A stretch of 64,000 nucleotides of DNA, taken from assembly GCF_010183535.1 (NCBI RefSeq), contig NC_071331.1, forward strand, positions 8,742,001 through 8,806,000, in the 5' to 3' direction. Below the pieces are notes generated by a model, which was given only the letters and a program-made list of their open reading frames with translations, did no database searches and had not been told where the DNA came from. Each line of letters starts with the position of its first letter. Within the stretch, counting starts at the first letter, position 1. The position numbers and the translations under genes were made by a program. The stretch is from Caenorhabditis remanei (taxonomy: Eukaryota; Nematoda; Chromadorea; Rhabditida; Rhabditidae). Shown here piece after piece: positions 7,569 to 43,800 of the stretch.

Positions 7569-9560
7569 TAAAGCCAAACTCCATCAATAGTCCATCAATA
7601 AAACCCAATTGTCCGTCACCTTTCTCCACAAAGTCAGGAATCTCGGACCACTGCTCCCGTTTAACAATCTTGTGGTGAGTATCTAACCTTCTAGAACATA
7701 CGCTGAGAAATTATTCGAATTTCTCTGAAATTTTTGGTTGAAATGATGAAATCGCGCTTTATTGAAAAAAGAAAGTTCGCTAGAGCGCACTTACCATCCC
7801 AACGGTTTTCATGTTCAAGAGTAAGAAACTTGTAGTTTGTAGTTCATAATGTTTTTCTGTTTCTCATTTCAGTTTTTTTGAACAAAAAACATCGACGATT
7901 CGTTAGGGTCGTGTAAAACGAATCTGCTGTTCTAATTTCTTTTTTTTCCGAGGCGGCTAAAAATTTGAGGAAGGCTAGGTTAGCTGATGGAAAATTCTCC
8001 TGATTAGACGCAAAGTATTCACAAAATATTTATAAAAATGATGAAACCGAAAAATTTTCGGTTTTCAGGTTTTTTAAAATTTAGATCTAGGCTTTTTGAG
8101 ATTAAGAGATTAGGTTGAAATTAGACGAAACACATGTTTTCCGTTTCATATTTCTCATAAAGTATTTGTTTTTTGTTACAATCCCGGTTGAGTCCTTAGG
8201 TAAGTCCGTTAATGCCATTCCATCATAATATCTGGTTGAGCTCCAGTTTTGGAACTAAGTTTCAGAAAATTTCCATTTCCTTAAATGCCAGGAATCACTT
8301 TTTTTTTAAAGTCAGACAACATATTACTTTAACAAAATTTTCGTGAACTTTACGACAGTTCAAAAACAGTAGGTAGGATTAGTTATATTGGGATCAAAAC
8401 CGCCCTCTGGAGAATTACTTCTGTATTCTTTTCTCAGTTTTCAATTCTCCCCAGAAGTCCTAAAGACTGACATCGGTTTAATAAGTTTGTTGTTCTAAAT
8501 GGGACATCTTAATTAACGTAATTAACATGACAACATCCAATTTTAGGTTCACTGAAAAGTCACAAGAAAATAATTTCTTTTGAATCATTATTTCTTATGA
8601 ATAATCCCTATAAATCCTCGGCGTCAGTCGTTTTTTATAAACTCGAAACATTTCTGAATGTTGGTACAATCTTGGCAAGTTGTTTCATTTTATTTTGAAA
8701 ATATTCAGCATTGAAAACCATAAATTATTGCATCCCGATTACTTCTCATTCATAATTGTTTTGCAAAGCAGCAATAATTACAGCAGGAAACTATTGGAAA
8801 CTTTTTGGAATTCTTCGGAACAGTATCAATATATATAAATGAGTGGGACCAAATCTTTAACTCAATGTTTACCTGAACGATGGTTTGAAAATTTTTCTGT
8901 TTCAGAAAATAGTGAAGTTTGGAAAAATATATCAAACTTTCATTGGTCCACGGGTCTCCTTTCCGATTATTTTTGCAAGCATTTTTGTATTTTTTGAAAA
9001 CAATGAGTTGGCTACTTTGTGTAACGAGATCGTGATAGCAAGTTTCTGTACTGTAGAAAATCATTTGGTAAAATTTTTCGAGCCCTTTTAAGGTGATCAC
9101 ATAATAAGAGTTGAATGATATTATTTTTCAATAAATCATTCAATTTCTCAGATTTCAGAAACTCAAGTTGTTGTTGAAAATTACTTTTCCAATAAAAATC
9201 ATTGTTAAATATACTTTTTTTATTTGGTTTTTGAACGTTTTTGCATTCTTTACCATTACCGGCTAAAATTCTTTGCTTATTTTTGTGAATCCCTGAACAT
9301 TAATTCGAACTTTTTCATAACCAGTCATAAAACGCTCAACTAAATTCCTGACTTGTCCATTCCTCTGGACTCAATTATGTGTGCTTTCAAATTTTATAAT
9401 TGCCGAATTCTCTCTGTTTTTTCGCTACCAATTCGTTATCGGTTTCACTAGCCTGTACAAGAAACAGTTGTAAATGATGGTGTAGTTCGTCCGGTGGTAG
9501 TGTCATTCCCAAGTTCATAGTCATATCGTATATGTTTAGGGCTACTCCGACATTCCGTTT
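7569..9560 (-). pseudogene. Decayed tandem copy of the secreted Cys-rich gene at 17881-22678
   Basis: Three blocks match the intact gene in order and strand. 7571-7680 matches the last exon: DTHHKIV is retained, and a small duplication repeating the GATGGA stretch shifts the frame before the end. 7780-7870 matches a donor region and an intron edge (tagagcgcacttaccat; tagtttgtagtt). 9450-9545 matches exon 2 (tgtacaagaaacagttgtaaatgatggtg versus its counterpart at 19941, split here: agttgtacatgatggtg). Middle exons are missing and the reading frame is lost. Weaker intronic similarity continues to about 10000. I infer an old segmental duplication followed by decay; it is not expected to make protein. 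Confidence 0.8.
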
Positions 9561-10428
9561 CAAAAGCTTGCAACCGGCAGCATCAGACCATGAATTCTAT
9601 TTCCCCAGGGGCATTACTATACAAAGTTTCGAACTCACCTGTTTTATCATTTCCTGTCACCGTTCAATGTGATTTTTTTTTGCTGACTTTATGCATAACT
9701 TTAACTTGAAATTTGAGTAACCATGAAGTAGCAAATTAGAATATTCGGAACTTTTGTCAATTCTTTGGAACAGTAACTCACATAATATTCGGTTTCACTG
9801 TTTATTTCCAATACCGCATTGTAGACTCACCAAAGTAATCCGTTTTTTTTACAAAGGTTAGTGTCCACTGATTCCATTTTTAATTTTGACAAAAGATATA
9901 GCTCTACGCATTAAAATGATGCTTCTACTCAGGAAATTTATTAGATATCTGAAACATGGATATTTCACTCAGGCTGCACTGAACTCTTCCTGAGGTGCAA
10001 TTTCACTTGGAATCGGAGACAACTTTTTGTGTGAAGACGTTATACTGACCACCGTCTTCTACGGAATCCAACTTATGTTTATCTGACAATCGACAATTCT
10101 GCGCATTTCTAGAAGGAAAATCCCCATAGTTATCTGTACCACTGTTGATACGGCTTGAAAGTTGATTCATATCAATTCCTCTATCATTTTCAAAGAAAAC
10201 TCGTGTGGCACATATCGAAAGTATGTAAGTACAACATTCAACACGTACATTTCATAAGAATTGTGAAACCTATTTTTTTCTGAAAGGTAATTGGCACCAG
10301 TAATTAGGTCACTACTAATTCTGTTTCAATAGTGTATCTTCATTCAAAAAGTTTAAAATAAGTTTATTAGGGATACGATAGAAAAAAAACTATTGTACAA
10401 ATCAGAGTGGAACTCCATAATTATCTCA

Positions 10429-13116: not shown

Positions 13117-14183
13117 GTTAGAACGGAAGAAAAAGTAACTCTCGTGCCGACGGATGTTGGTTAATTAGCTGTGAAAAAATTTTAAAATTAATGATACAAT
13201 CCAGAAAAAAACTGTTTCACTAGCTTCTGAAATATAAGTGTTTTTCTAAGAACCCATTTAGCGTTTATTTCAAACCGTGTCAATGATAGCTTCAGTTATA
13301 AAGCGTCGAAGAATTTCAAGGCAAATAACCAACAGTGTATGAAATTTAGTGCGAATTTTTCTGTTTCACATAGTTCATGAACGAGATTCGTGAATCAGGA
13401 AGTCACTATTGGTCGTATAATCTGTTCCTATTCTAAAATTCGGCTTGTTTCCCATCGGAAATAAGCCTGTTCTGTTGTTCACAGGTTTCTACTGTTTCTA
13501 CTTGTCAGTAACTTTTATTCGACGTCTTCATGTTGTTTTGTGGTAAAAAAAACCATATAATGTTTTGTTGAATTTCGAACTAGAACTGTATTAAATGGAC
13601 ATTAAAAGCACTCAAAACAGTTTTTGAGAAAAAAATCTCTTTCCAAAACAGTGTTAAAATGTTGCACAAAATCCATCGATACTATGTTGCCTACATGTTT
13701 AGCAGCAAGGAAACAAATTTTTCATTGCATATTGTTTTTTATGTGTACTCACTCTTTTCGGATAATTTTCTGAGAAAAATTTGAATTGAGGCATTTCACG
13801 CGGTTTCAAACCAAAATTAAATTAAAGATATCTGTTACACTTAGTTTTGTCAAGGAAAAATATACGTTTTGAGCGCAGCTATAACTTTTAAGAATACATG
13901 TGACGTTGAATATCTGGGAATCAGAAAACTACTCTTTTTCATTGGAAGCATTTATCCCAGTAGCGATTTCGGATAATGCACTACTGAAGAGTATAAGTTT
14001 ATATAAAAAACGTTTCATTGAAAAAGGTTTGTTGAAAAGTAATCGTAGACAGTTTTGGAACTTTTTCTCATGAGATTTTCTCGTTCGAAAACATAGACGT
14101 CAAAACTTTACCAGTGTAAATACGACAAGCATTCAAAAAAATGTAGTGTAGACCCACTGAAAAATGGAATTCTTGAGGAAATA

Positions 14184-14622: not shown

Positions 14623-14920
14623 TTTGCCAATAAATTATTTTGTAAAATGGTTTTAATGACCTGATAAAACTTAAGGTAGTTATTTGAAACGGGAATTAAT
14701 AAAGTGTTTCGAATAATTTTTAACTAGACCAACAATCACTTTTCTTAATTACTTAATTGTACAATCGCACAATGACGTACTCTGTTTCCTCACTTTTTCT
14801 TTTTTGCACTGTTTCACTACTATATTAAGACCATCAAATATTCAATAGTTTGATAATTTAATGCAATTTAGCACGCAAAAATTATGTAGTTGTATATCCA
14901 ATTCAGAGTGTTACACGCAT

Positions 14921-15422
14921 CATACTTGTCAAATCACGGGCCGGCCCGCGGGCCGGCCCGGGCCGGGCCGGGCCGGGCCGGGCCGGGCCTGCTGAAAATT
15001 TCAGGGCCCGGAACCAAAAAATTATTTTTGAAAAATAGAATTGAAAGTCTTGGAAATTAAATTTTTTCTTCGGTCTATACTAAATCAAGGTCGGGGGATT
15101 CGATTAGACTACTTTCAGAAGCCTCCAGCAAGTTCTTGATCCTGATTCTGATCATCGGCTGATCATCACAGAGACTTTGAGAGGCTCAAAGTTTATAGTG
15201 ACAAAATAACTTATTCTGACAATTTCCGTTTGCACTTGTTGTCTTTTTATAATTTCTAATCAATAATATGTTTGCCATAAAGTAGTAAACGAAAAAACAA
15301 TGGGAAAACGACGAAAATTTTTTTTTTCAATATTTTGACGGGCCGAACGGGCCGGGCCGGGTCGGAAGATTTTTTTAGCGGGCCCGGCCCGGCCCGGCCC
15401 GGCCCGGCCCGTGACAAGTATG
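14921..15422. mobile_element. GGGCC-rich terminal-repeat element with 8-bp target duplication
   Basis: This 502-bp element begins catacttgtcaaatcacggg and ends cccgtgacaagtatg. The flanks are acacgcat on both sides (14913-14920 and 15423-15430). Long GGCCC arrays lie inside each end. It is the longest copy of the family here and carries no transposase. Confidence 0.92.
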
Positions 15423-17880: not shown

Positions 17881-20800
17881 TTATTTGAGCCAAACTCCAT
17901 CAACAGTGACCAGTTGTCCGTCTCGTTTCTCCACGGTATCAGGCATCTTGAACCAATGTTCTCCTTCAACAATCTTGTGGTGAGTATCGAGCCACGAAGC
18001 ACTTGCACCGAAGAATGGTCCGAATTTCTCTGAAAATTTTCCTTTTAATGATGTTCACTAGAGCGCATTTACCATCGCAAGCCAATGGGCAGCTAGGGAA
18101 AGTAGTCTTGACGAAAACCTTATTCTGTTCACAAGCCCACCACGTGGCAACTCCATTTTCACGGCGACATGAGGCAGCCTGGAATGGAGCGGACCAGCAG
18201 TTCATGAGATCTTGACCGTATCTGAATAATTGAGTTTCTGGAAAATGCGCTCTACAGATAAAACGTACTTGCAACCGTTGGTAGCGTCATTGGCGGTGTT
18301 AGTGATATAGGTTTGGACGCATCCTTGGAGAATGTTCTGTCGAGTGTTGAGAACACGTTGTGGGCAGGTGAGACCTTCGTGTTCGAGGGCTGAAATTTTA
18401 TAGTTTGTAGTTAAGCTGCACATTTTTTTCTGTTACTAATTAGTCTTATTTTTCGAAAGAAAAAATCGCCGGTTATTGAACACAATGAGGAACCTTGCAA
18501 CTTATTTTTTCCATCTGTTTTTCACAAAACAATATTCTCCTCCCGCCCTTACTTACTATTAATTCCTGGGCCACAATTGAAGGACGAGTATTGTCGGTAG
18601 GTGGCTTCCACGGCGTAAGCCTATAATTATACCATCATTTTCTCCCTGTTTTTTTGCCTGTTCGAACACAATTTTTCTTGTTTTTTACTTACATTGTTAA
18701 TGTCTGTTTTCTTGATCAAATTCGAAATATCAAGACATCCACGGTTTCCGTGCATGCAGAGATTGAAGGTCTCGAGGCTGCTGAAAATTGGGAAATTTTT
18801 GATTTGACTGAGATTGGTTCATTAAGCTTAAAACAATCTTCAAAACATTTCTGGAAATGTTGAAACGTAGAATTTTAGGGATTTTCTAATTCTAGAAGCA
18901 TTAATAATTTTTCCGTTTCTTGTTTGTAATAAACTGAAGACCATTAGAATTAATTTAGTGAGAAATGTTCAGCTCGAACTATTATCTATTCATACGTATT
19001 CGTATATTGACTAAAACACCGCAAAATGAGAATCTATTGCAGTCTCAATTGCAGTCTCAAACTTTTCATAAACTTTTGTGACTGTTTTGAAACAGTAAGA
19101 TAATTTCTTCGCGTTGTGAGTAAACCCGAAAGACCGCGCTGTAGAAAACGGTGAAAAAATTGCGAGAATTATTTGATGGTATACCCCACAAGTTAATTGA
19201 AGTTAGCGAAACCGTCAATGAAAAAGCATAGCTTGTTACGAAAAGCAAATCAGGGAACAACTTTTACCATTTCAAAGTAATGACTTTATGCAGAAGCCAA
19301 AAGAGAAAAAAAATCTAGAAATTCAATAATCAGACTGGGCACAGAAAAACTATGTTCTATTGCACACGGCCTCAGCTTGTTATCAACATGAAATCAATGT
19401 GCAACTTTTACCATTTCAAGGTGACGACTTTACGCAGAAGCCAAAATGGAGAAAGTTTTAGAATTTTGAAGTTGAGTTCTCGTATTATTCACATAAATCT
19501 TTGTAGGCAGTATATTTAAAATTCGTAGATGCCCGAAGTGGATATTCTCAGGCTATAGTCGGGATGTATTGTTTTATCTTGTCGGGAAAAGCCTTATTAG
19601 AATTCGATAATTTTTCATCTTATTCACTCGGTGGTGAAACATCGAAATTTTTGAAGACGGTGGCTAAAATGCTTGAAAGTTTTAAGTTTTCTTCGTGCAG
19701 TTAATCATCTATACGATCGCGACCTCCACTACGATATGGTTCACAATTTTTTGTCTCTAACAGAATTCACTATTTTTCCGATCCTTGGTGTCCACTGATT
19801 TCAATGTAACTTTGTAAAAAATACATTCAGAGACGTATTGAGATTTTAGTGAATCTCACGAAATTCCCATCTTATCTGAAACAGTACTCACTTGCAAACA
19901 GTCAACATATCAGCAGTCTGTCCTGGATTTCTTCCGAACATGTACAAGAAATAGTTGTACATGATGGTGTAGTCCTTGAATAGCTGAGCAGATACGGTGT
20001 CATTCAATCCCAAGTTCATGGCCATGTTGTATTGACACGCTTGGAATTTCGCGTCGACGCATGACAAGTCTTGAGCGTAGCTGAAAGTGGAGGCGAGAAG
20101 AAGGCAGGCTGGAATTGGGAAAGAATTTAAATTTGAAAGAGAGACACATTAGTCGTTTGATATTGAATTGGTTCTGATGTTTAGAAACCGGGGAAGTTAT
20201 TTTTGCAGTTTCAGAACATTTCTAAAGTGAGCATTGAAATTTGGGTTTCATTAAACAGACATAATTTGGACTTTATAGGATACAAGGTTTGTTCCGACAT
20301 TTTGACAATAAACGCTGGCAGCTTCAAAAAATTCTGCAAGCATAACTGTTATAATTTTATTAGTTGAAGCTCAACTTATTCGTCAAGCTTAATGCGGAAA
20401 TCATAATTTTTTTTTAATTTTTCGAAAAAGCTTACGGAAATGCATATTCCAATAAAATGATCCCTGTTGTCAGTGATAAACCTTCTTTTATACCAAACTA
20501 ATCCCGCTTTGAAACATTGATATATGTTGAACTTTCAAACAGAAAATGGTTTGTAAGGTAAGATTGCATTCTAGAAATTCTCAAATTCACGCACAAACTT
20601 CTCGATGAGATTTCAATACGTCGACACAAATTCGTCGCAAATGCCTTTAATTTGAATTTGTTTTCCGCGAGATTCTGGGAGGCGCTGCGGTCGCGTCGCG
20701 AGCGCCACTGATATCTCTGTTAATCCTCATTTTTATGAAAAATAACTGAGCAAACAGGTACCTGTGCACCTATTTATTGTATTTAAGAGAAAGTTATATG

Positions 20801-22678
20801 AAAATTTAAACTACAGGAGCCCGAAAATTGATTTTGGCACGGTGCCAGAAGTCTACTGTAACCCTAAGATTCGCGTTTATCAGTAGAGAGCGTCAAATGA
20901 AAGCGATTTCGGACAACCCTGCTTGACGAGATGCTTTTTCCCGACTAGTTCAGTTCTAAGTAGTCACTTCGACAACGGATTGCTAGCAACCAAGTACATA
21001 ATGGATACTCGTGCAAAAATAATGTACTACTTGAAACTGAAAATTTTGAACCGCTGTTAGTGTTAATTCTTACTATTTCAAGTTTTTCTCAAGTTTCATA
21101 ACTACTGATAAAAATTTATTTTTCTAAAACTATTCCAATCAGTAGTCTGAAATAAGTGTCAAAGTGCTATAGCTTTTTGAAACAAAAACATGATTTGCTT
21201 CTGTTTCATTGAAAAAATATGGTTTCAAAAATAATTAAGGTTACATTCGAATTTCTAATTGTTCAACTCAATATCAAAATTTTCTGTTGGAAAAATGGTT
21301 TTTCCAAAATGGAAAAAATAGATTTTATGAAAACGTTCAATGATAAAGACTCAATTGGGCTTCTGTAACACACCTTCCTTCAGAACAAATGATTATGCTG
21401 AAACAGCTTTTTGAAAACTAATTGAACACACTTTAATATTTCTCAAGAATACGCAGTTTCACACACCCCATATTCTTTTCATAGAGAGCTTTTTTTCAGT
21501 TATAGAGCTGTGGAATGAGCTTTGAACAAAAAACATTTTCGAAGTTGACTCGCATGTGGAAGTGTTTTTAAAAACTTATAGAACTAGAGTTAGTTAGTTG
21601 AAACATAATTATTATAAATTGCCTCAAATACTTAGTAGGCAGCTTGTTTAGCTCATACAATTACTACCGACATCTTTCTTAGGTCTCGTAGGATTTTGCG
21701 GTTGTACGTTGTTATTATGATTTTCCAAATCTGACAGATTTGATGATCTAAAGTTAAGCTTACAAATAGCTGTGAGCAGTTGTAACGGTATTTAAAAGTC
21801 TTTTTTTTCCATTAACCCGTTTTTGCCGTGATCAGCTCAAATGCATCCTTTCGGGGACATGGTTTGTAACGGGAGTGTTAGAAAAGGATCTTTGAATATA
21901 TGAACAGGAATTTTTTAAATTGAATACACTGATTTTCTATGAAAAGATGAAGAAAATTCTGTTTCAAATAACTTGTAAAAAAGTGTATTTACATAGGATT
22001 TTGTTAAGTTTTGTACAAAAACGATCTTCGAAAGATTAACATTTTGTGAACTGACATTTTAAGGTTCTACATATCGGGAATTTAACTTAGGAAGCTCAAT
22101 CCATTATTGAAAATATAGCGCTCAAAATCGGAAAAGCATGAGGCACCCCTAGAAATTCTCACAATTTTCAGCTCGATTACACTCAAAACACTTTTTCTCA
22201 GAAAAAAGAGACAATTCAACGAAGGATCCAAGATCATTATTAGTATTCCACAAACCATATATAGGAAACAGAAGATACATTTTGGTATTCACTATTTCTT
22301 CAGACATGAGTATGGAGAATAAATTCTGAACGAACTGATTACTCTAGCTTTTGTTTGGGGTTCACTAGCCTAATCTTATCCAGAATTTATTGACAAATAA
22401 AGATTTTTCAGCATAATGACCCGTCTTTGAAACAGAAAATTTAGAGTATGCGAATTAGAAAAAAGTTTGGGAACATTTTGACCCGCGGTTCGAAACTGTT
22501 TTCAAAATAAGGAGACGAATACAGAATTTTGTAGAACAACTGCCAAATGTTCACTGTTTTTCAAAGTGAGTATAAACACTACTTTTTTTTCTATGTAGTA
22601 TTCGCAGTAATTTAGGACTTCCCTATCTCCTCAACAAAAAAATTCAAACTCACCGAGTACAGCTAAACCTTTCGTCAT
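17881..22678 (-). CDS. Secreted cysteine-rich protein, nematode-type, family not recognised
   Basis: Seven exons: 22654-22678, 19892-20108, 18693-18780, 18557-18620, 18269-18389, 18073-18221, 17881-18029. They give 813 nt and 270 residues in one uninterrupted frame. The N-terminus MTKGLAVLACLLLASTFSYA is a clear signal peptide; the mature part starts about QDLSC. It contains 14 cysteines (even number, so disulfides are likely), among them QACQYN, NLCMHG, GCKYGQDLMNCW and CPLAC, one or two N-glycosylation sites (e.g. NDT) and no membrane segment after the signal. The C-terminus is VDGVWLK. I infer an extracellular role and cannot assign a function. The first intron is 2.5 kb and holds several CTGTTTCA motifs. 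A decayed copy lies downstream at 7569-9560. By position it may be the gene between dld-1 and tra-3 that I recall on C. elegans LLC1, but I have not verified that. Confidence 0.88.
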
Positions 22679-23666: not shown

Positions 23667-24293
23667 AGGTAATAAAAATGAAAAATATTTAGAGAATAAT
23701 GGAAGTTACCTGAAACATTTTATAATTTTCGCTCTGCTGCTGCATCTAACGGAATGAATAATTCACTCCCATTTTTAAAAGTCTTGAAAACCAAAGGAAA
23801 CGGTGAAAATTAGGATTTTTACTTATGCGAGAAAGCAGTGGTAGTCGTTTTTTTTTCTGTGATCCGTAGTCGTAAAATTTATTTGACTTGTGTGAAGTTC
23901 CTTTTTCTTCAATCACTTTCCCATAATTACCATTTCAAGCAAAGTGACACTGTTCCAATTTGTTGTGTGTTTGTTATAGTTTCAGTGTTTCTTGACTCAT
24001 CGCATTTTTATCTTTTCTTGTATTGGCATGACTTATAGATCGAATTTGATAACAAAACAGCTAAAAACTATGGTCTTCCTAAAATCTGCGTGAAACAGTA
24101 AAAATTGCAACTTGTGCTGAAAAATGAGACAATACCACTGAAAGTTTATTATTTTTATTTTTTATACTGCTATTAACATGAGACTATGATAACGGAAAAA
24201 CTGCAGTTCATCTAACGATGAAACAGGAGATCATTTGTATAATTTATGTGTAATAGTTATGGATCTATTAGCAAAAAAGAATAAACTTTTCAG

Positions 24294-24639: not shown

Positions 24640-26830
24640 TACTCTCTGACCCACATGAACTGTTTTTGCAAAAGTATCAGCAGATGTATTTTTGTCTCAA
24701 TTTCGACCGAATTTTGATTTGTTTTCGAAAGGTAGAAAACAACCTACTGAAACATGATTCACCCATTTGTTTCTGTGAGCAAGTTTTCCGGTACACTACT
24801 TGACCCACATGAACTCTGCTTTCAAAAACTACTAGCAGGTGGTTCTTTGTGTCAAACATTTGCCGTCAATGATCAACTCCAAAAGGGAGTTTCCAGCTGT
24901 CTAATGCTTTTTCACATCCATAAGTTAGTTATGTTGATGTATACAGTCTCCATTGTTTTTTGAGTAAGATTTTTTTCTAAAAACCAATCGTTAGCAGCAT
25001 GGACGCTCGTTGAATGTTGGTCGGAAGAAACAGTAGAAGTTGTACATTTCAGCAACTGATTAATGGTTTTTCCAATATTGATGAGAAACACTGCAACTGA
25101 TATACAGTACCGCTCAAAAGCTTTCGTTGTTTTCAGTGCAGAATTACCAGGTTTGATAGTGCATTTCGGTGTCACCTGATTGTCAGAAGAATTTTATTTT
25201 GCATGGGTTAGACAGAGCAAAAACATCACATCATTTTTGTAGTTGACCCCTTTTTTGTAGAGACACTATCTTGAAAGTTACAGGTTCTCGAAGTGAAAAG
25301 TTCCAAAACTTCGCACAAAAAAAAAACTCGTCGGACGATCAGGTGATACCAAAAATTCACTATCAAACCTGGTATTTATCTTACTGAAAACAGCCAGAGT
25401 TGATATCCTTTTGAGCGGTACTGTAAGTGTTCTGGAAAAATAATACCACTCATCCAGTTGTACTCCTCAATAACTCGTATTATATTGTGGGACTATTATC
25501 AATAATACATATGGCATGTTTCGCAGTGATGTTAATTGTCTCGGGGAGAAAATTTGTCTCAATTGATAATGCTGACGTTGATTATCTTCAACAACGAGCG
25601 CAACTAACTAATTCTCTACAGTCCCGTGTAAGGAATAATAAGAAAAACGTTCCACAAAGACGGTTTGCGTTTTTTCAGGCTAGGGTTCTACAATTTGTGA
25701 TCAGTGAACTGAAAAATGATTTACTCTAGAATTGTTGTGGTACGTTGAAGAAACGGAGAATGTCTAACTAAAAAGTTTCTCGGTTTCCAAAAGAACACCA
25801 TGAATGGGATGAATGTTGTCTAGTTCATTGAACTTTTTGTTTTTCAGAAATTTATATGAAAACTTTTTGAAACATGACTTACCCGATTTTTCCTGCTAAC
25901 AATTTCCTTGTTTTACATCTACACAAACTCTGCTTCAAATATACCTGCTAATATTTTTTTCACATATGTTATACATGTTGATTGTCTAAAATATCATTCA
26001 ACTTTTCCGACCACATTTATTGTAAATGTGGTCGGAAATCCATCGGAAGCTGAAATCGCGCTTGCTGAATGTTGGTTGGAAGAAACAGTAGAAGTTGAAC
26101 TTTTTATACTTTTCGGTTTCATAGAATAGTGTTTGAAACAAATATTGCAGTTTCATAAAAATGTTAAGAGTTTGATTAAAATCGATCTGAGGTCCTTCTA
26201 AAGTTTTGAAAACGTGAATTTTTCATCGTTCCTATTAATCAGATCCCTCGTATTATATTTCGAGACAATTAACATTGACACATATTCCATGTTTCACATT
26301 GCTGTTAATTGGCCCGGGCATAAATTTATCTCAATTGATCGAATGTGGAACAATAAACACAACTAACAACTAATTCATAAACTGTCGTGCGAGAAAAAAT
26401 AAGAAAAACATACCAAAATAATGGTTCGCTATTTTTTAGTCTAGGGTTCGGAACCATTTATGAGAAATGGATTGAAAAATAAATTATTCTAGATTTTTTT
26501 ACTCCATAGAAACGGAAAATGTCTAACTAAAAAGCTTCTGGGTTCCCAAATGGGCTCCAATTGTTTGAGGCTGGTTATATATGTATCAAGAAATATATTA
26601 AGCTTCTTCAATTGTTGTTTCATTTCAGAAATGTACATGAAACCTTTTTGAAACACGACTTACCCAATTTTTTCTGCTTACAATTTTCTCGTTGTATACC
26701 TACACAAACCCCGTTTTTAAAAATGCCAGCAGGTGGATTATTGTGTCAAACACGTGTCGTCAATGATCAACTCCAAATCCAAATTTCCAGTGTTGTTTCT
26801 CATGCATTAAGCATGCTGGATGTCAACTGA
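24640..26830 (+). repeat. Tandemly repeated 5' region of the srw gene (three degraded units)
   Basis: The signature tgaaacatgayt-tacccatttt, then acmcaaact-yg, then ccagcaggtgg and tcaatgatcaactcc recurs near 24750-24890, 25865-25990 (partial) and 26640-26790. gaatgttggtcggaagaaac near 25013 recurs as gaatgttggttggaagaaac near 26069. The block 25470-25790 (cgtattatattgtgggac to atgtctaactaaaaag) recurs at 26248-26540. The third unit runs into the srw start codon. The 25427-25560 part still reads NNTTHPVVLLNNSYYIVGLL, resembling the receptor's first membrane segment, so unit copies carried exon sequence. Confidence 0.7.
25103..25425. mobile_element. Tc1/mariner-like foldback inside the srw upstream repeat
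   Basis: tacagtaccgctcaaaag at the left and cttttgagcggtactgta at the right, with arms including accaggtttgatagtg and its complement. TA borders and CAGTACC ends resemble Tc1/mariner termini. No transposase. Confidence 0.85.
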
Positions 26831-29800
26831 GAGTGTGTATTCCCTTGCTTCGAAAGCTTTTCCAAGTTATGATAATGGGACAAGAATCGATTTGTACAAT
26901 GTCTTGATTGCTTTTGAGTGAGTGCTAGGAAATATTGTGACAATTCTCTGCATAGATGAAGATTATCAGTAATACGAATTCCCTCTGAACCATAATTAGT
27001 AACAGAAACTGTAAAAAATTGTAAAAACTATTTCAGAAATGCCACCCATCCAGCTATCATTGTTAACATAATTGTATCTATACTAGGCGTAGCCACCACT
27101 TCTATCCATATCTATATTTTATCTAGGAAATCTATGCTGAAATCCTCCGTGACATCGATAATGATTGGGGTCGGTGTATGTGATTTCATGGCTTTACTAT
27201 CATCGATTGTATCCAATATTTTCTATTTGCTGATAGAGAAAAATGAGAAACCGTGGTAAGTCACAAATTGTAGACCATCATATCCAATCCGATTTCTAGC
27301 GACCCTCCCCTACCCTTACCATCATTTTATGCCTATTGGATAGCAGTAGTTATCTATGATTTATTCCGTCGCTCCTCCACTTGGCTCAGCGTGCTTATGG
27401 CTCTTATTCGTTGGGTTGTTATGAAATTTGGGACACGAAGAACTTTCAGAAAAGTCACTCTGGTTTCCTTTGGGGCTTGTGTGGTGCTAGGCACTGTTTT
27501 AGCGGGTTTACCAATATCTGGCCTATATTATTTCCGGTATGATATTATGAAAGTGAAGGATTGGGTGCCGTGGGAAAAGTGAGACTCGGATTTATTTTAC
27601 TGTTTCTGATAAGAAATATTTGTTCAGCTGTACTGGTGTCCCAGTAATGGAAGGTTATATTGTCTACACCCTGGTTCAGTCAACTTTATATACTGTAAAT
27701 AATGGAATTATCGGGAAAATTTTTCAATTGATCAATGGAGTTGTGTCAAAGGTTAGTGGGAGGGGAACGGAAAGCTAGGTGGTTATTCTTTATAAAAATT
27801 AGTTTTGAAAAAAGACGATACAGCATGATGAACGCTTTGTAATCTTCTAGATGAATCAGTGATTTTTTTGTGTTTCACTTGGTATTTTTACCTATTGAAA
27901 TTAGAAAGTTTTAATATGCATACTCTCTGCATAAAAGTGTCAGCTATTCTTGTGCGTGTTGGTGGACGAGTATGTCGTTAGCTAGTTAAAACAAAGATTA
28001 AGGCAATTGTCTGATGAGCCGGGTTCAGTGTCGTTTTGACTAATCTTAACAGATTCTTATGTATGCGCTGGCCTGAATGACATTTCGAAACAGTTCAGTA
28101 TTTTGTCAACGTTGGTGAAATGTCAGTAAACTATTGTCGTGTTTCACAAAGTTCATAAAATCTGCCATATTTTTTCTGTTTCTGATACTGACGTGTGCAC
28201 TGTCTCCCAGACTCCGAGAAAGAACTGCAAGGAAATTCTTGATCTACCCTCATGAAACGAAACATTTGAGAAATTAGCAAGCCTAAAACGTTATTACTTT
28301 AATTTTTAGCGTGAAGCTTAAGGTTAGAAATAAGAAAATTTCAGTTTTAGAATTATTCTGAGAGCATTATCCACCCATTCAATCCAAAAATCCTGGTTTC
28401 AGATATTATTTTAGGTCGAAAAGGCAATTTTTCATTTTGATTTTGGAAATATCTACGGGATTTGTTCATTTTTCAATATTATCCAACGAATGATAGCTCA
28501 AATCGTGCTCCGGAGTATTTTACACATTTCTGTAGGACGGTTTTCAATTTGCTCATTTGTTTTTGAGAAATCGATCAAATTCCGAATTTCTTTCAATTTT
28601 TTGTTATTTTCTCGAAAACTAATAAGCAAATTGAAAAACCGTCCTACAGAAATGTGTACAAATCTCCGGAGCACGTTTTGAGCTATCATTCGTTGGGTAA
28701 TGTTGAGAAATGAACAAATCCCGTAGATATTTCCAAAATCAAAATGAAAAATTGCGATTTCGACCTGAAAAAATATATAAAACCATGATTTTTTGGATTG
28801 AATGGGTTGATAATGCTTTCTGAATAATTCTAAAACTTGAATTTTATCATTCCTGACTTGGAGCTTTACTCTAAAAATCAAAAAAATAAATTAGTAGACC
28901 TGCTAATTTCTCAAAATTTTCGTTTCGTGACGGGAGATCAAATACTTCCTTGAATTTGCTTTTATCAGCTATTTCAAAAGTCCAACTTTTTCTCCAAAGC
29001 TTACTAGTTCGGTTTTCATAATACCAGGTACACCTCCGGAAACTCTGTTTGGATTTCTGATGTTAACTTTAAATTTCTTTCATTTTGTCTTTAGAGACTT
29101 TAGAGAGGGCAGTTTTTGAACGACTCATTTTCACAAGTTACTGTTTCAGGACATTTTTAAATTCTGGTACTAGCAAGTAGCCAGTAATCTCCGTTCTGTC
29201 CATTCTCAATAAAAGGAAAATTTTAATTCTCTTTTTCCATTATGTTGACCAGAAAAAAGTTGCGATTCACTAAATTTTTCTGTTTAGCAAAGTCATTAAT
29301 AATATCGACATACCCTAATTTTGTATCATTGATGATGCAGAAACATTTCTTAAAAACAGCATCAGCATTTGGTTTCTGTTTTTTACATTACACATGCCAA
29401 TTTTTACTCTCTCTGGTAGGGTTTTCAGATTTATAAAATACGCTTTTCTGACAAATAGTATACAATTCTAATGATAGCAGATGTCTTTATCTTTCAGAAT
29501 AAATGTTTGCGTTGAAACACGATATGATAATAACGTTAGTGTTTGCATGCACATTTTCACGAATTTCTGTTTCAGTAAACTTTTTAAGACTTATAGATCG
29601 TCAGTAGTCGATTCCGCGCAAATTTTCTCCATGGCAGAGAATTGAATTTTTTTTGAGCCAGCATATAATTTCATAACCCTAAATAACAGGAAATTCTTGA
29701 AGAAAAACACAATTTCAACACCTTTCAGCTTCTTCCCTGTGTCCTTCTTCCCACTCTAACTATATTTCTTATTATTGAACTACAAAAGGCGAAGAAAAAT

Positions 29801-30230: not shown

Positions 30231-30935
30231 AAGAAATCAACGGTTTTGATTATTTGGAATTGATTATTTCTCACCAATAGAAAAAGAACATCAACTCTGA
30301 AAAACTATTTAATTTTATACAATGATTCTGAATCTGTAAACTTCCTAAAAATCATTCTGCTTTGGAACTATTTGTAAACTAGAATTACTTTCAAGTTGAT
30401 TAATTCCTTAGTAGAATGTGTACCCAGAAAAATAGTATCCAGAGAAACTGTATCCAGACACTCTGGAACATGAAAAGAATAAAGAAAAAATAACATAAAT
30501 TGAGTTCATTCAGCAATATTTATTACTTTTATATTCTGTTTTACAATTACCTGAAATTATTTCAATTTCTCGGTTCTGTGATTAAACAACAATAGAGAGA
30601 GACTTCTGTTTCACCACTTCTCTTAAAAAAAACAACTATTTCAATTTCTTTAGTGGAATTTTAAAAATTTTACAACAAATTAAACAACTAAGTTTTCCTT
30701 TAGTTGAATAATTGATTACTAGTGTAGTAAAAATCTCCATCTACATCAATCTATTTCAATTTCTTTTTGTGAAGCACTCAATTTCTTTCTTTTTTTTTCT
30801 TTTGTTTTCTAAAAATTATATTGTTCATGAATTAATATTTTTTCGCTATATCAAAAGTATGTTTGCACAATTTTTAGAAAGAAGGTTGTAGAAGCCGATG
30901 AATTTTTGAAGAAACAAAAACATTTTTTATCACCA

Positions 30936-31215: not shown

Positions 31216-32102
31216 AAGATTGTTTCAATTTTTTGGTTAAACGTTTTTTTTTCGAGATTTTCAATCTCACTAGAGTTCACCCGACATTCAAAAACTTACA
31301 GTTTCAATGACTAGTTATATTTAACGAGAACATCAACAAATAATACAGCGACTCTTCTATAGTGCAACATAAATTTCTTACTACCTCTATGCAAATTCGT
31401 TGAAAAAAAATTCGTTATTTTATCATTCTGATAAAGAGTATCTGAGAATGTACGATGAATCAACTTGGTTTGTAAACGACAAGTGTGAAACAGCAAAATT
31501 TTGGCACACTTTTGATGCAATGTTCTGTTTCGTGCTTCAATGGTCTATAACAGAAAGAATTTGATGTAATTCTCTTTTGTTGTAGCCGTTTATCTAATGA
31601 GTTTCACATACATATGAATTGACGATCTCCAATTCATATGTTATGGTAGACAATACCTCTATGGCAATGAAGATTTACCATTTTGGTTCCACTTCCATTT
31701 GGTCAAACAATGTTTTTAAACCACGCACTAACTTTTTCATTTTTTTTGTTTCAAGTAACCTTTCCATATTGTTACAAAAAAGAATATAACTTTATGACAA
31801 CTTTGTGAAACTCAATTCTAATCTGAATTTTTTTAAACGTGGCTTTCATTTCTATCAGATTTTCTGTTTCGTTAATCGCTGAAAATGTATTTCATTAACT
31901 TTTCAAACATTCACGAAATCTAATTATTTTTTCCCGAAAATCAAAACGGATCAGATGATTACTTTATGCTGCTGTGTGTGGGTTTTCCGGTATGTATATT
32001 TTGAATTCGAAATAGTTCTGCCTCAGCGGAATGTTTCACTTTTCTGCACATGTTTTATGAACTGAAGGTCCATATCTTTAATTGAACCTATGTCGTCTGT
32101 TT

Positions 32103-32452
32103 CATACTTGTCACGGGCCGGGCCGGGCCGAAATCAGGAAAAATCTCGGCCCGGCCCGCTCGGCCCGTTTTGAAACATTTTTTCAAAACATTTTGAGTTT
32201 TTGAATTTTTTTTGGAAATTTTTTGAAAAAAGTATAGTTTTCGAATAAACATTTAAAATTGAATCAAAATGTGAATATGTAATGATAATTTAAGCATTCT
32301 TACTGTTTTTTTTCGAAAAATTTCAAAAAAAAATTGGTAAAAATGGGTACCCATTTTTGAATCCGGGCCGACCGGGCCGGGCCGGGCCGAGAGAAATTTC
32401 GGCCCGGCCCGGCCCGGCCCGTGGCGGCCCGGCCCGATTTTTGACAAGTATG
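32103..32452. mobile_element. GGGCC-rich terminal-repeat element, with empty site visible in the opposite arm
   Basis: The element begins catacttgtcacgggccggg and ends gatttttgacaagtatg, flanked by gtctgttt on both sides (32095-32102, 32453-32460). The homologous outer arm on the right (35484-35502 read in reverse) has tatgtcgtccgtttgtaacg with no insert. This unoccupied site defines the element ends and the 8-bp duplication directly. Confidence 0.95.
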
Positions 32453-36328: not shown

Positions 36329-38345
36329 TAAAGAACTGATTTTTCACGGTTCCGTGCATGTTACTTTTACTGTTTCAAGAGCATGTTTTGATTCCTGCAA
36401 CATCTTCTTTTTTGATTCCTGCAACAATACTGCATCGTGCTATGGCGCTGTTCCTGTTCATGTTCTTTCCATCCTCCTTCCCTCTCTCTATTCCCCGCAT
36501 CCCTGTCTCTCTCTCCCCAAACCATCACATATTTGCTCTTCCTTTCAACTATGACTCACCCATTTTTCTGACACCTATTCCCATTTTTTTCTTTTCATTT
36601 TTCGCCCTTTCTTCTCCCACACAAAGCACAAAAACCATGCGATGTTTTTTTCTCGTAGGCGGTAGAGACAAGATTCCGAATTCTTTTTTTTCGCGTGCTT
36701 TTTTGTGTCTTCGTGACGATAGTAGGAAGATGAGGTGTGAAGGAATGACGTGAATTCGTTTAGCAATTCCGTAAGTTTCATTCCTTATCAATTGTTAGGG
36801 AGAGGGGAGGTTATCAGTGATAGAAACCTTAAGTATATATATATATGTATGGACTTCTTAAGGTAAGACTTTTTCGTTTTGTTGAGAGAAAAGTGAAAGT
36901 GATCTTTATTTCCTTTTTTGTACGGTTTCTGATAGTAGTTTTTAGAAATTTGGAAAAATTGATCTTAATTCCACTAAACCATTTTTCAAACAACTTCTTA
37001 ATGAAAATTGTAACGCTTCTAGATCAGAAATACTCAATTTTCTTGGCAATTCAAATTTAATCGTTCGTTTTCAAGGTCAATTAAACATATTAATGTAGCT
37101 GATTTTTCATATTAGAAATACTCATTTGGTGTTTTTTTCAGTACCGATTGTTTTTAACCCAGAAAACTTTAGAAACTGTATGACAACATTAATAACCAAC
37201 TTTGAAACACATTTAGAACTGGAAAGTTTTTAAAATCGAATTTGGCGTTCAAAATTTTTCAAAGCATGTAATTTCAATTTCGTTCTGAGCAAAACAAATG
37301 ACTTTTTGTTATTTATTTCAGTTTCGTGAAACTGTTGAAGCATTTTAGTAGTATACATATTGATGTACTTTCGTTGCGTGCTTCTAAAATGTTTTCTGAT
37401 TTCGTTACTACTGCCACCCTACTGGAGTCAGTCAGTCTACCAGAAAAGTCGCACAGTTTGAGAAAATTTTACGGTTTTCTCAGTTCTTCTCTAAGAAAAC
37501 CCTAATAATTTATTCCCAATGATTGAACACTAAAAATAGAAACGTCTCCAAGCATCCGAGAATTCATTATTTTTGTTGTCTCGAACAGCGAAAACAGAGG
37601 AAGTCATTCTCCGATTAGCTATTACAATTTTTCAAAACGTTTTCATTGCCACTGGAAACAGATGATTCATTGGCCAGATGCATTTTTTTCGGTTTCAACC
37701 TGTTCTCTTAAATTCACTTTAACTGGTATTCATGATTTTTGTATAAAGCAACACGTTCTCCACTTCTAAGACAAATGTGACACTAGAATTTTTCCAAAAA
37801 AAGGAAAACCAAGGTTTTCTCAAGATAACATGATTTTCGTTACGTCTTTTCGAGAGATTTTTTTCTAGTATGGAAAAAGTGTTCACTACATTTAGAAAAT
37901 ACGGAATCAGTAACTCGAATGATTACCTTTTTGAAGTTTCCTGTTTCATAAAGTTGTTGAAACAGATTTAAATTACTCTTGCCTAATTTCAATATTGAAG
38001 ATAAAATTAATTCTCACATTTTAAATCTCGAAACCAGTATATTTTCTCTCATCAACTACACTGCTTCAATATTCGTCACCCAAACTTATTGAACTTTTCT
38101 GATTTATTGCAGTTACATGTATTCGATGAAACAGTCCAAGTCGGTATTTAGTGATTTCAGTGTTTCAATTAATTTTCCGGTATATAATTGTAACTACTTT
38201 TATTCGAAATATTGAAAATTCAATAAGTCAATTATTTTCAAACATGTAAAATCAGTAAAATGGTGAAGGATTACTGTTTTTTCGCATCAGGAAATGTTAA
38301 ATTTTTTCGAGTTCTGCAGTTTTAATGTATCATACTCATTTATCC

Positions 38346-38999: not shown

Positions 39000-39145
39000 A
39001 GTTGCGCGGAATTCCGACTTCCGACTTCCGGGCGTTTTTTCACTTCCGACTTCCGGCTTCCGACTTCCGTTTTCAAAATTTTACTTCCGACTTCCGGTTT
39101 AGAAATTTTACTTCCGACTTCCGTTTTAGAAAAAATTACTTTAGC
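39000..39145. mobile_element. Fragment of the GGAAGTC-array hAT family (reverse orientation)
   Basis: gttgcgcggaattccgactt is followed by repeated acttccg units in the layout of the right end of the hAT element at 60790-60948, read on the other strand. The far end is missing, so it is a truncated copy. Confidence 0.75.
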
Positions 39146-39159: not shown

Positions 39160-40618
39160 CAGGGCCTCTATGGTTGGTTGATCAACTCTAGCGTCAAATT
39201 TTTACGAACCCAACAGCAAAACATGCGAAAACATTATTTACGGACTTTTTGATAAATTTTCATTAAAAATTCGATCAGGATTCAACCGTTAAGTATAACA
39301 ATGATTACTTCGAGACTTACGAAACTGCTGATTATGCAATATAATCTTTTTAGCTGAAAAAAACCACGACAATTAGTTAATTTTGGTGTAAGCTCGTTTC
39401 AGTGTTCCATCAATCTGAAAAATTCTTATAAATTTGAATCAAAACCAAAATATTTATTCAGTTACATATGTTATGTATAATTAAAATAGAGTGAATCTGA
39501 TGTTTGGGTTAACATTGACTTTTTCCACATTTTCCACACTTCACATAATCACGTCTTGTCGGAAACTTTTCCCCACAGTTTCTATAGATATTCTATAGAT
39601 ATAGATAAATTATAGATTCTATAGATGTGCATAGGCCTACAGTTTTTATTGGGGATGTGTTATTTGCTTCTTGTGACAAAATTACCAAAATTGTCATATC
39701 TGTTCGATACGGTAACACTAGGTTCCAGCTCCAAAAGAACAATGTTTCATTGCCTTTTGAAGATTTGGAAAGGGCTTTCCTGGTAATGGATTACATCGAT
39801 TCTACTTTATATTTGGTTGTTTGATATATTATCTTTTTATCAAATTGCACAAATTTTTGTTCTGTTCCAAGAAATTGTTGAAACGGGTGATGTAGTTTTG
39901 CTATACTCCGGACCAACGAGAATGAATAAAAATGTTTCAAGGTTCAGATAATTGGAGGAACAAACACTTCTGATGATTGCTTTTTTCCGTATAGAATTTG
40001 AATTTATTTATCTTTGGTAATTCATAATTTTAACGGTGTTATTTTTGAAATTACGTTATCAAAGTTTTTGGACTTTTGTGCTGTTTCATGAAAATGTTGA
40101 AACATGTTGTTGTGGCTCTCGTATAATTCTTTCTATTCTGCTAGGTCTCGTTTCTGAACTCCACGGTCAGTTTAGACCATTCCCTAGTTTGAACCCAGAA
40201 TGTAGATTTCGAAACCCGACAAATCTTAAAAACACTCAAAGGTAACTAGTTAAACCAGAGAATATTTCCGGTTTCGACTAAGAGGTATAATAATGACCCA
40301 AGTGAATATTTCAGTAAAGCGATGTTCTTTCCACGTTTAGAATATTACTTTTTTACGAATGACCTAACTTCACTGAAAATCTTGTTCATTTTTTCAATTT
40401 TTTTTGAATTATCTACAAATCTGTAGTCTACGCTTCCCTCTAACTTTCTGTCTTTTGCGCCTACAAACTGCAAAAAAACCGCTTCCAAACTATGTTTAAT
40501 CCAATTAGTTCTTTATGTGTGATGTGTCTTCTGCATCCTTGACTATGTAGTCTCCATTTTCCACACTTCACATAATCACTTGAATTACGTTCTGATTCCT
40601 CCTTCCTCTAAGGGGAGA

Positions 40619-40632: not shown

Positions 40633-41179
40633 TTTGAATAAGTTTGTATGGTGGTATGGACAGTCGGGTGGGAGAGGAGGAAGACCCTAAACACAACAAC
40701 AAATTCTTCTCTCTCACCCGCTGGTCTCTTCTCGTCGAAAACATCGAACCGTTTTTTGGTGTGTCTGCGTCTCCGTGGAATTCCACACTCTCTCTTCTAC
40801 ACTGTTTTTCTCTGTTTCTATCTCCCTTTCTCGTATTCAACTATTCTCAACATTATCATGTATATGTCTATCTGTTTCCCCTCATTCTTTAGAAACTGTC
40901 TCTTCTTTTTCTCGTCAATCAATTTTATCGATATGTATGCATTTTTTCGTTGTATTTTTCTTTTTGTTGCTGTGATGACTGATGTGTAGAAATAGGTAGA
41001 TGACACGTGTATGATGATGATGAAAAATTAGATTATGTTTCAAATAAGTTTTGAGAGAAAAAAATAATTTTCCTTTTAATGGGTCTGCATTTCTTGTTTT
41101 TGTTAAAAAAACATTTTTAAAGAATTTCTATTTGAGAGACTCTAAACCATATTTATTTTTTGAGCAGCTTATTTCAAAT

Positions 41180-43800
41180 CATAAAACTTGGGTGGTCAGA
41201 ACTCAAACTTTATTTTAAAATACTATATTCAAAACATTTCCTGTTTCATGGTTACATCCAGAATCCCGATGATTCATACTTTGTGGTTGCACCATCTTTG
41301 ATGTAGTTTTCTTTCAAATTTCATATTTTTCACGGTTTCAAGACAGTATTTTGGAGAATTTTAGAGAATTTCAGTTAATCCAATTTTTTCTCAATGCGAT
41401 GTTAGTTTATCAGTTTTTTCTTAGTAGTTGCTATTGATTAGATTTTTCTGAAAAGATTTTCAGTTTCAAGATATTCATTTCAGTTCCAGTAGTTTTGTTA
41501 TGAGTAGTACAGTTCGGTTGTTGGATTAATGAATAAAGCGAAATCTGAGAATATAGGGATTGACTGTTTCAAAAGATCTGACTATTTATCGGCAACGACT
41601 ATTTTTTTTCTTACAATAACGAACTCCCGAAGTTTTAAAAAACTTTTCAGTTTCATCTTTATGATTTTTTTGAGGTTGTTGATCGTGATATAATTGAAAC
41701 CTGGGTTTATCATAATTTTATAAATAATTAAATATGTTTTTGTAGTGGTTTGGTTATCCATCTTAGCGGATTTAAAACATTTCGAGTTTTGATCCTTTCT
41801 GTTTCACAAAGTCCTGATATTGCTGCAATCTCCGTTATTCATGTTATGAGTGGCTATTTTAATCGAACTGCATTTCAGCATAGTAAATTAAAAATATTTC
41901 CTGTTTCATGGTTGCATTAAGAATTCCGATGATTCATACTTTGTGGTTTCACAGTTTTTGATGTGCTTTTCTTTCAAATTTCATATTTTTCACGGTTTCA
42001 AGACAGTATTTTGGAGAATTTTAGAGAATTTCAGTTAATCCAGTTTTTTCTCAATGCGATGTTAGATTTTCCAATTTTTCTTAGCAGATGCTAACGATTA
42101 GATTTTTCTAAAAAGATTTTCAGTTTCCAAATATTCATTTCAGAGAGAAAGTGTTATAGACGGCAATCTCCGTTATTTACGTTTTGAGGTTTTCTTTTAC
42201 AGATTTTCCAATCATACAAACTTGGGTTATTAGTATTCGAACTTTATTTGAGAATAGTAAATTCAAAATATTTCCTGTTTCGTGGGTTTGTCAAGAATCC
42301 CGATGATTCATATTTTGTTGCTTGGTAAATTTTTCTTTGATTTTTTGTTCGAATTTCGTATTTTTCATTACTTCAAGACAGTATGTTGGGAATTTGTAAT
42401 CCAGGTTTTTTCAAAGTGAAGTAGTTGTATCAAATTGTTCTTAAGAGTTGCTAACGATTAGCTTTTTCTGAAAATATTTTCAGTTTCAAGCCATCCATTT
42501 CAGTTTCAGTAGTTTTGTTACGATCAGTGGTACTTCAGTTAGTATATGTATTAGACTGATGAAAATAATTCGAAAAAATGAAGCTCCATGTATAACTTAA
42601 TTTTACTAAAAGTAAAATACGTTTTGTAGTGTTTATATTTGCCATTTTAGCGAGTTTAAAACCTATTTACATAAGAAATTTTGATTTTTCCTGTTTCGTT
42701 CTGATATTGATGTTATCTCCGTTTTATACGTTGTGAGTAGCTATTTTCCAATCACATAAACTTTAAATTTTTCTAAAAGTTGATAAGGATTAAGGTGTTC
42801 TGGAAACATTTTCAGTTTCAAGATATCCGTTTCAGTTCCAGAAGTTCTGTTACGATTAGTAATCTGTCAGTGCTTTTAGTCAGACTAATGAAAAAAATGC
42901 AAAAGTGAAACAATAGAGATTGACTGTTTCAAAACATCTGAATAGTTCCTGAACGTTTTCTGGCGTATTGCCATTTTTTTTGTAATCTATTGTTTTGAAA
43001 GTTCCACCTCTCTCATATTGAAATGTATTTAGCGGCAACGAATATTTTGTTCTTCTTACAATAAGGAATTCACGAAGTATTTTCTAGAAATGTTTCAGTT
43101 TCATTTTTATGATTTTTTTGCTCAATCGAACTTTTTAGGACAGTAAAAAAAGTAAAAAATGTTTTGAAAATTCCACATTTATTTACGTTTTGAGTAGCAA
43201 CTGGGTGGTTAGTATTCGAACTTTATTTGAAAATAGTATCATACATTCAACACATTTCCTGATTCATAAGTTGATCAAGAATTGCGATGATTCATACTTT
43301 GTTGGTTTGTTTCGAATGCGGATTTTTTTCGAATTGCGTATTTTTCATTGTTTTAAGACAATATTTCGGAGAATTTTAGAGAATTTCAGTTAGTCGTGTC
43401 TTTCCATTTTGTGTTAGTTTTATCAGATTTTTCTTGGCAGTTGCTAACGATTTGGCTATTCTGAAAATATTCTCAGTGTCAAGATATCTATTTCAGTTCC
43501 AGTAGTTATGTTATGATTAGTGATGAGACTTCATTTACTGTACCAAACTAATGAAATAATGCAAACTAGTGAAAAAAAATAGTGAAATGTGAAACAATAG
43601 AAATTTACTGTTTTAAAACATAGTCTTCAACGTTTTCTGGTGTATTACCATATTTCTTTTTAATTGAAATGTATTTGGAGGCAATTGTTATTGTAAATTA
43701 TGTTTTTGGAGTTTTTTTATTAACCATCTTAATTCATTAACATTTCGGGTTTTTATTTTTCCTGTTTCACAGAGTTCTGATATTCCTGCAATGTTGGTCT
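41180..43800 (+). repeat. Degenerate tandem array carrying CTGTTTCA units
   Basis: A block with tttcctgtttcatgg, 28 nt further on tactttgtgg, then cacggtttcaagacagtatt, agaatttcagttaatcc and finally cagtttcaagatatycattt recurs at about 41230-41510, 41890-42150, 42265-42520 and 43255-43510, with a partial unit at 42690-42860. Units are 350-700 bp and diverged. The spacing from the CTGTTTCA-type octamer (CTGTTTCA, CTGTTTCA, CTGTTTCG, CTGATTCA) to TA(C/T)TTTG is 28 nt in all four. No reading frame is conserved. Confidence 0.8.

Follow-up and report, generated by a model that had tools for sequence, protein, structure and literature searches.

Probable Ruby-motif 21U-RNA genes in a 64-kb window of Caenorhabditis remanei chromosome IV, a slice of a sparse left-half domain

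Type I 21U-RNAs, a class of PIWI-interacting RNA (piRNA), are 21 nucleotides (nt) long, 2′-O-methylated, and bound by PRG-1, and they come from capped precursors of ~25 to 29 nt; the class is further characterized by binding of USTC (PRDE-1, SNPC-4, and TOFU-4/5) and by H3K27me3. Here we describe a 64,000-nt window of C. remanei PX506 chromosome IV (contig C4, 8.742 to 8.806 Mb; forward strand, 8,742,001 to 8,806,000), in which copies of the octamer CTGTTTCA very probably serve type I 21U-RNA genes as Ruby-motif promoters, each gene perhaps forming a separate, autonomous unit. On the same sequence evidence, the window would be a slice of a sparse ~12-Mb domain, with a dld-1-like and a tra-3-like gene lying inside it. 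The primary paper on C. remanei 21U-RNAs is reportedly that of Shi et al. from 2013. In C. elegans, a core motif is followed by an A/T-rich spacer of ~35 to 42 nt and then by the 21U-RNA, and the female-type core is ATGTTTCA (PMC3597512). C. briggsae loci carry a pyrimidine-purine (YR) dinucleotide at −3 and −2 relative to the T; the piRNA clusters of this species lie at 0.02 to 7.1 and 13.0 to 15.0 Mb of chromosome IV and at 9.8 to 12.0 Mb of chromosome I, and in the second chromosome IV cluster the Ruby motif is flanked by strongly A/T-rich sequence (PMC9683057). Beltran et al. reported that the piRNA-dense contigs of most of their Caenorhabditis species map to C. elegans chromosome IV (PMC6436959); the word remanei was not found in that paper. 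C. remanei 21U-RNAs have been profiled and, according to a review (PMC6468775), are 2 to 3 times as numerous as those of either C. briggsae or C. elegans.

A recount reproduced the octamer numbers of the initial annotation of this window: 37 exact copies of CTGTTTCA (25 on the plus and 12 on the minus strand), 30 of them at 8,897 to 43,762 and a single one (2,629) in the 1- to 8.8-kb and 43.8- to 53.1-kb blocks together. The chance expectation given there, 2 to 3 copies, was too low, as Markov models trained on the window put it at 4.2 (order 1), 6.6 (order 2), 7.8 (order 3), and 13.1 (order 4), the order-4 model already absorbing much of the motif. The enrichment survives these better background models, with Poisson probabilities of at least 37 copies of 5 × 10⁻⁸ against 13.1 expected and 6 × 10⁻¹² when the genome-wide average, 9.3 per 64 kb, is taken as the expectation. 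Genome-wide (130.5 Mb in total), CTGTTTCA occurs 19,000 times (9,483 + 9,517) and the reversed-word control 6,781 times (3,454 + 3,327). Ordinary base composition could favor such a word, given that A+T-rich DNA favors T-rich words, and so could SNAPc or small nuclear RNA (snRNA)-type sites without piRNA output, the Ruby motif being derived from a SNAPc site (PMC6436959). We regard this explanation as very improbable. CTGTTTCA is the commonest in the window among the 840 permutations of its letters, with 37 copies against a median of 2; the runners-up, TTTTCAGC and ACTGTTTC, have 26 each, and ACTGTTTC is a frame-shifted copy of the motif. These counts, together with the phasing described below, speak against base composition, and snRNA or other Rfam genes were rejected on a scan of the window that returned no Rfam family at gathering score.

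The window was compared with 14 samples of 10 kb at 0.3 to 14.3 Mb (left half) and six at 16.3 to 25.6 Mb (right half) of chromosome IV. A core was called phased when a YRNT box placed a T at +44 to +48 from the core start, i.e., 36 to 40 nt after the core; in an offset scan, the peak lay at a T position of +46, which is 38 nt past the core (37 of 123 sites), against a mean of 8% over offsets. Scoring for this box downstream of the octamers, a check proposed in the initial annotation, found 31 of 37 CTGTTTCA copies phased in the window (P = 2 × 10⁻⁹) and 74 of 87 in the left-half samples (P = 2 × 10⁻²¹), compared to a background of 35% (2,455 of 6,930) for 839 permuted octamers in the same DNA. 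Phasing was found for 25 of 30 copies inside 8,897 to 43,770 and for six of the seven outside. Permuted words served as the control because one-mismatch octamers are partly phased themselves (146 of 266 sites), several being working variants. The background is conservative, since the pool retains six permuted words, each found at 30 or more sites, that are 63 to 83% phased; five of them share the string GTTTC, and the remaining one, CACTGTTT, repeats the motif in a shifted register.

Position 2 of the core proved loose, with CNGTTTCA phased at 77 to 91% in the window and samples, and ATGTTTCA was phased at 18 of 25 sites in the window. Twelve variant cores were selected on the 14 left-half samples only (minimum, 8 sites and 60% phasing) and then applied to the window, where they gave 162 cores, 121 of them phased: 6 of 14 at 1 to 8,896, 81 of 105 at 8,897 to 43,770, 13 of 14 at 43,771 to 53,173, and 21 of 29 beyond. 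Under the same rule, only 12 of 41 cores were phased in the six right-half control samples and 5 of 22 in 25 kb from five other chromosomes, a small sample. As cores outside the domain are poorly phased, phasing belongs to the domain and is no property of the words themselves. Judged by how far phasing exceeds the background, about 28 of the 37 CTGTTTCA copies and about 98 of the 162 twelve-variant cores are likely to be real units.

Each predicted unit would span ~67 nt and comprise the core, an A/T-rich spacer of 36 to 40 nt, a YR initiator, and a 21-mer whose first base is T. On the C. elegans model, the USTC/SNAPc complex would bind the core, RNA polymerase II (Pol II) would start at the YR and pause at a low-melting stretch about 21 to 29 nt past the T, and the resulting capped RNA of ~28 nt would be trimmed to the 21U-RNA and loaded on PRG-1. 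We infer that the predicted units are expressed. Among 227 phased CNGTTTCA units pooled from the window and the 14 samples, G+C (GC) content at +21 to +29 after the predicted T was 0.304, compared to 0.347 at 25,891 other YRNT sites (z = −4.3). This dip, at the predicted precursor end, agrees with the high-then-low melting profile that has been connected with the pausing of Pol II at the piRNA genes of nematodes (PMC6436959). Furthermore, same-strand cores less than 60 nt apart numbered 7 in the window and samples, against about 28 expected from pairs 600 to 1,200 nt apart, and none of 400 control word sets (GTTTC-containing words excluded, CACTGTTT retained) was as low. By set, the samples held 1 such pair (8 to 60 nt) versus 18.8 expected, and a second chromosome IV domain, described below, held 7 versus 18.1. 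Given a unit length of 67 nt, this scarcity of close same-strand cores suggests that units do not overlap head to tail, a sign that bears only indirectly on whether they are separate, autonomous units. The Piwi-domain family profile matched the genome 67 times at exon level; among four Argonaute pieces compared with solved structures, three were closer to AGO, and one (C1:628061-628363; contigs C1 to C6 are chromosomes I, II, III, IV, V, and X, respectively) was closest to PIWI proteins (PIWIL1, 1.7 × 10⁻³⁴; AGO2, 1.6 × 10⁻¹⁵). Judged by this comparison, the genome encodes a PIWI-clade Argonaute exon, a putative PRG-1 candidate.

Several observations weigh against the assignment of these octamers to 21U-RNA genes. 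Permuted octamers reach 35% phasing, so that any single unit may be chance, and 6 of the 37 CTGTTTCA copies in the window are unphased. The GC dip comes from units pooled across the window and samples, and the GC rise at +1 to +13, toward the 5′ end of the 21-mer, is only slight (z = 2.2). In the window by itself, same-strand close cores number 7 versus 11.8 expected, a weak depletion; because the non-overlap comes mainly from the samples and the second domain, our confidence is slightly tempered. Lastly, the 15-mer AATTTTTATGTTTCA, which carries the ATGTTTCA core, is rare, with 9 genome copies (4 on C4) versus 3 of the reversed word; as it is neither frequent nor concentrated, we claim no domain map for the female-type core.

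A transposon or satellite family that contains CTGTTTCA by chance could also multiply the octamer, and duplicated units do occur at 41.2 to 43.5 kb, with 9 of the 144 window core sites being near copies by their flanks. The other 135, however, show at most 60% ungapped identity to any retained site across 92 nt of flanking sequence, a measure that diverged or gapped copies could escape, and what the sites share is the core, the YRNT box, and, weakly, a T-rich stretch. The low flank identity speaks against a repeat family for most sites, and we consider this origin extremely improbable.

To define the extent of the domain, we turned to chromosome IV as a whole. CTGTTTCA was present in 14 of 14 left-half samples, with 89 copies in 140 kb (mean, 6.4 per 10 kb; standard deviation, 3.6), compared to 5.8 per 10 kb in the window and 8.6 in the stretch at 8,897 to 43,770. 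Equal motif density in unrelated regions, named in the initial annotation as counterevidence, was not found: the six right-half samples held 1 copy in 60 kb, and a small sample of 25 kb from five other chromosomes held 5. A 15-mer composed of the core and its common left flank has 64 genome copies, 56 of them on C4 (34 at 0.67 to 12.19 Mb, 20 at 18.97 to 20.33 Mb, and 2 at 23.5 to 23.7 Mb) and the others on C1 (3), C2 (1), C3 (1), and C6 (3), while a control with one core base changed has 10, 2 of them on C4. The left domain is thus sparse and occupies roughly 12 Mb of chromosome IV, and the window is a typical slice of it.

The initial annotation had instead proposed a discrete local piRNA cluster bounded sharply by dld-1 and tra-3. 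CTGTTTCA is indeed dense between these genes and nearly absent over them, and on the dld-1 side phasing drops to 6 of 14 variant cores, close to the background rate, so that the thinning of units there is real. Against such borders, the octamer returns at 53.2 kb, the largest gap (9.4 kb) is ordinary for 37 uniform points (P of about 0.10), and the tra-3 block, where several variant cores lie by reading within introns and the 5′ flank of the tra-3-like gene, has 13 of 14 variant cores phased. Together with the left-half samples, all of which carry the octamer, at a mean density like that of the window, these data largely refute a cluster with borders at the two genes, which we hold to be very unlikely. 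The dld-1 and tra-3 gaps are gene bodies inside the domain. Altogether, the piRNA-domain claim is supported as regards Ruby-motif units, through phasing, the GC dip, concentration on chromosome IV, and the PIWI-clade exon, but not as regards its bounds. In the tra-3 block, two core pairs near 47.4 and 47.7 kb resemble copies of each other.

The table lists the features of the window; unit rows run from the core to the predicted 21U end (~67 nt). In the duplicated units at 41,241 and 41,901, the cores are kept and the 21-mers differ. Twenty open-frame pieces chosen by length or codon score were scanned for genes: 4 from the dld-1-like gene, 2 from the calpain gene, and 2 on the strand opposite the calpain region, plus 6 from between the two genes and 6 that follow them. 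The dld-1-like exons, on the minus strand at 2.8 to 7.0 kb, have dihydrolipoamide-dehydrogenase-type domains, and the names dld-1 and tra-3, taken from the initial annotation, fit the predicted domains, at the level of “-like” only. For the tra-3-like gene, the putative start is the first ATG of the open frame, and the end is that of the last mapped exon, a provisional 3′ limit. The 14 remaining pieces matched no family above the cutoff, a scan that small or many-exon genes could escape, and a scan with bacterial settings found no tRNA genes in the window. The C. elegans positions of dld-1 and tra-3 were not found in a single look-up. A weak DUF659/transposase-like match at 59,644 to 60,084 on the minus strand (E = 0.005, under Pfam's cutoff) is perhaps a hAT-type transposon remnant. 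Short GGCCC/CGGGC-rich repeats stand within A+T-rich DNA at 14,937 to 14,989, 15,381 to 15,411, 32,400 to 32,436, and, by eye, about 45,450 to 45,680; CGGAAGT minisatellites, on one strand or the other, lie at 39,043 to 39,141, 52,454 to 52,548, 58,184 to 58,353, and 60,795 to 60,933, and several of them show a higher-order period of 41 nt. Table 1 of PMC10461856 gives the PX506 chromosome sizes (I, 17,247,545; II, 19,935,723; III, 17,877,849; IV, 25,790,997; V, 22,502,457; and X, 21,501,900), places the left-arm/center recombination boundary of chromosome IV in a confidence interval of 8,397 to 8,881 kb, within which the window falls, and shows for the left arm of this chromosome the lowest rate of any autosomal arm listed (1.447 cM/Mb).

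Table. Predicted 21U units, genes, and other features of the window (positions within the 64,000 nt)
Feature	Position	Strand	Details
Stretch named in the initial annotation	8897..43770		30 CTGTTTCA (25 phased); 105 twelve-variant cores (81 phased)
Weak candidate unit beside 3′ exons of dld-1-like gene	2629..2693	+	CTGTTTCA core to predicted 21U end
Predicted 21U unit	8897..8964	+	core, spacer, YRNT, 21-mer
Predicted 21U unit	10321..10388	+	
Predicted 21U unit	13212..13278	+	
Predicted 21U unit	13361..13427	+	
Predicted 21U unit	14809..14874	+	
Predicted 21U unit	19028..19095	-	
Predicted 21U unit	19817..19884	-	
Predicted 21U unit	21201..21267	+	
Predicted 21U unit	21959..22025	+	
Predicted 21U unit	22369..22435	-	
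Predicted 21U unit	24031..24098	-	
Predicted 21U unit	29141..29208	+	
Predicted 21U unit	29567..29632	+	
Predicted 21U unit	30606..30674	+	
Predicted 21U unit	31427..31493	-	
Predicted 21U unit	36370..36436	+	
Predicted 21U unit	37941..38007	+	overlaps opposite-strand unit 37898..37965
Predicted 21U unit	37898..37965	-	overlaps 37941..38007
Predicted 21U unit	38068..38134	-	
Predicted 21U unit	40081..40147	+	
Predicted 21U unit, first copy of duplicated unit	41241..41307	+	
Predicted 21U unit	41799..41865	+	
Predicted 21U unit, second copy of 41241 unit	41901..41967	+	660 nt on
Predicted 21U unit	42924..42989	+	
Predicted 21U unit	43762..43827	+	
Predicted 21U unit past claimed edge	53174..53240	+	
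Predicted 21U unit past claimed edge	54436..54503	-	
Predicted 21U unit past claimed edge	54851..54918	+	
Predicted 21U unit past claimed edge	56304..56370	-	
Predicted 21U unit past claimed edge	57757..57824	+	
Block over and after tra-3-like gene	43771..53173		no CTGTTTCA; 14 variant cores, 13 phased
Diverged tandem duplication bearing several 21U units	41200..43521		main step 660 nt
dld-1-like gene	2834..7002	-	exons 2834-3073, 3531-3956, 4956-5798, 6703-7002; Pyr_redox_2 + Pyr_redox_dim
tra-3-like gene	44532..48861	+	calpain: Peptidase_C2, Calpain_III; exons 46113-46358, 48103-48861

Phased cores in the window favor the plus strand, 85 to 36 (P = 1 × 10⁻⁵). Same-strand neighbors, with near copies removed, made up 200 of 342 pairs in the window (permutation P = 0.08) and 145 of 287 once 41 to 44 kb was omitted, which indicates that the window has no local strand runs. 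Such runs were found in the 14 left-half samples, where 378 of 620 pairs 60 to 1,200 nt apart were same-strand and none of 1,000 permutations was as high. Divergent pairs less than 60 nt apart numbered 21 in the window and samples against 8.7 expected, with 2 of 400 control sets as high; CTGTTTCA alone gave only 1 divergent pair within 120 nt, and the excess therefore rests on variant cores.

The second domain on chromosome IV, at 18.9 to 20.4 Mb, is patchy and has the upstream flank TTTA-CTGTTTCA. The word AAATTTACTGTTTCA has 164 genome copies; among the 100 of these that were listed, which reach as far as C4:23.37 Mb, the second domain (18.86 to 20.36 Mb) has 66 and the left domain 14, another 15 lie at or beyond 23.16 Mb, and C1 and C2 together have 5. 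The ratio of the core-flank 15-mer to listed AAATTTACTGTTTCA copies is 34:14 in the left domain versus 20:66 in the second (Fisher P = 1 × 10⁻⁷). Two 10-kb pieces (C4:19451001-19461000 and 19487001-19497000), picked for holding listed AAATTTACTGTTTCA copies and hence nonrandom, contain 93 CTGTTTCA in 20 kb, 69 of them phased, with the consensus aaaatTTTA before the core; they are far denser in cores than the left domain. Core pairs 12 to 34 nt apart in these pieces were divergent in 14 cases, convergent in 1, and tandem in 1; phasing held for 19 of 28 divergent-pair members and 50 of 65 other sites, and 381 of 662 pairs were same-strand (P = 0.01), so that local strand runs occur here as well. 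The one unpicked sample within the span, C4:20.300-20.310 Mb, held a single CTGTTTCA, which indicates that the second domain is patchy rather than uniformly dense. We tentatively suggest, as a speculation that may well prove wrong, that there are two kinds of piRNA domain with distinct promoter dialects: a sparse, degenerate-core kind in the left half, including the window, and a patchy, locally very dense kind at 18.9 to 20.4 Mb (with more from 23.2 Mb), with the TTTA flank and frequent divergent pairs 12 to 34 nt apart that possibly share one USTC platform firing both ways. The dialects could match different SNAPc variants and hence male/female or early/late germline. The sparse unpicked sample tempers this proposal.

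Our data suggest that Ruby-type piRNA genes and chromosome-scale domains are readable from DNA alone in an outcrossing worm, by a rule combining core variants and phase, which was learned from one group of pieces and proved valid for a second. Two contrasting domains on one chromosome make it possible to test what a piRNA domain contributes over and above the promoter word and how such domains spread across half a chromosome. Among titles and abstract starts, with subscription papers mostly outside the search, we found no chromosome-scale 21U-RNA map for C. remanei, no account of the flank difference, and no report of divergent piRNA gene pairs. The window is a good instance of a known system, to which the chromosome map, the two flank dialects, and the divergent pairs are possible additions. 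21U-RNAs have been reported from this very species and are therefore expected in the window. Like the type I clusters of C. elegans, those predicted in C. remanei have the core word, a T 36 to 40 nt from the core, a YR initiator, a low-melting stretch downstream, and megabase domains on chromosome IV; unlike them, the left domain is about 12 Mb long and sparse, core position 2 is loose, and the samples show local same-strand runs. C. briggsae shares with C. remanei a long left chromosome IV domain and a compact second one in which the Ruby motif has strong A/T flanks, and the second domain described here would correspond to its second chromosome IV cluster. In contrast to C. briggsae, two 15-mers and one 5-kb piece gave no sign of a chromosome I cluster in C. 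remanei: 3 of 64 core-flank 15-mer copies and 1 of the 100 listed among 164 AAATTTACTGTTTCA copies lie on chromosome I, and 1 of 6 cores was phased in the piece at C1:10.8 Mb.

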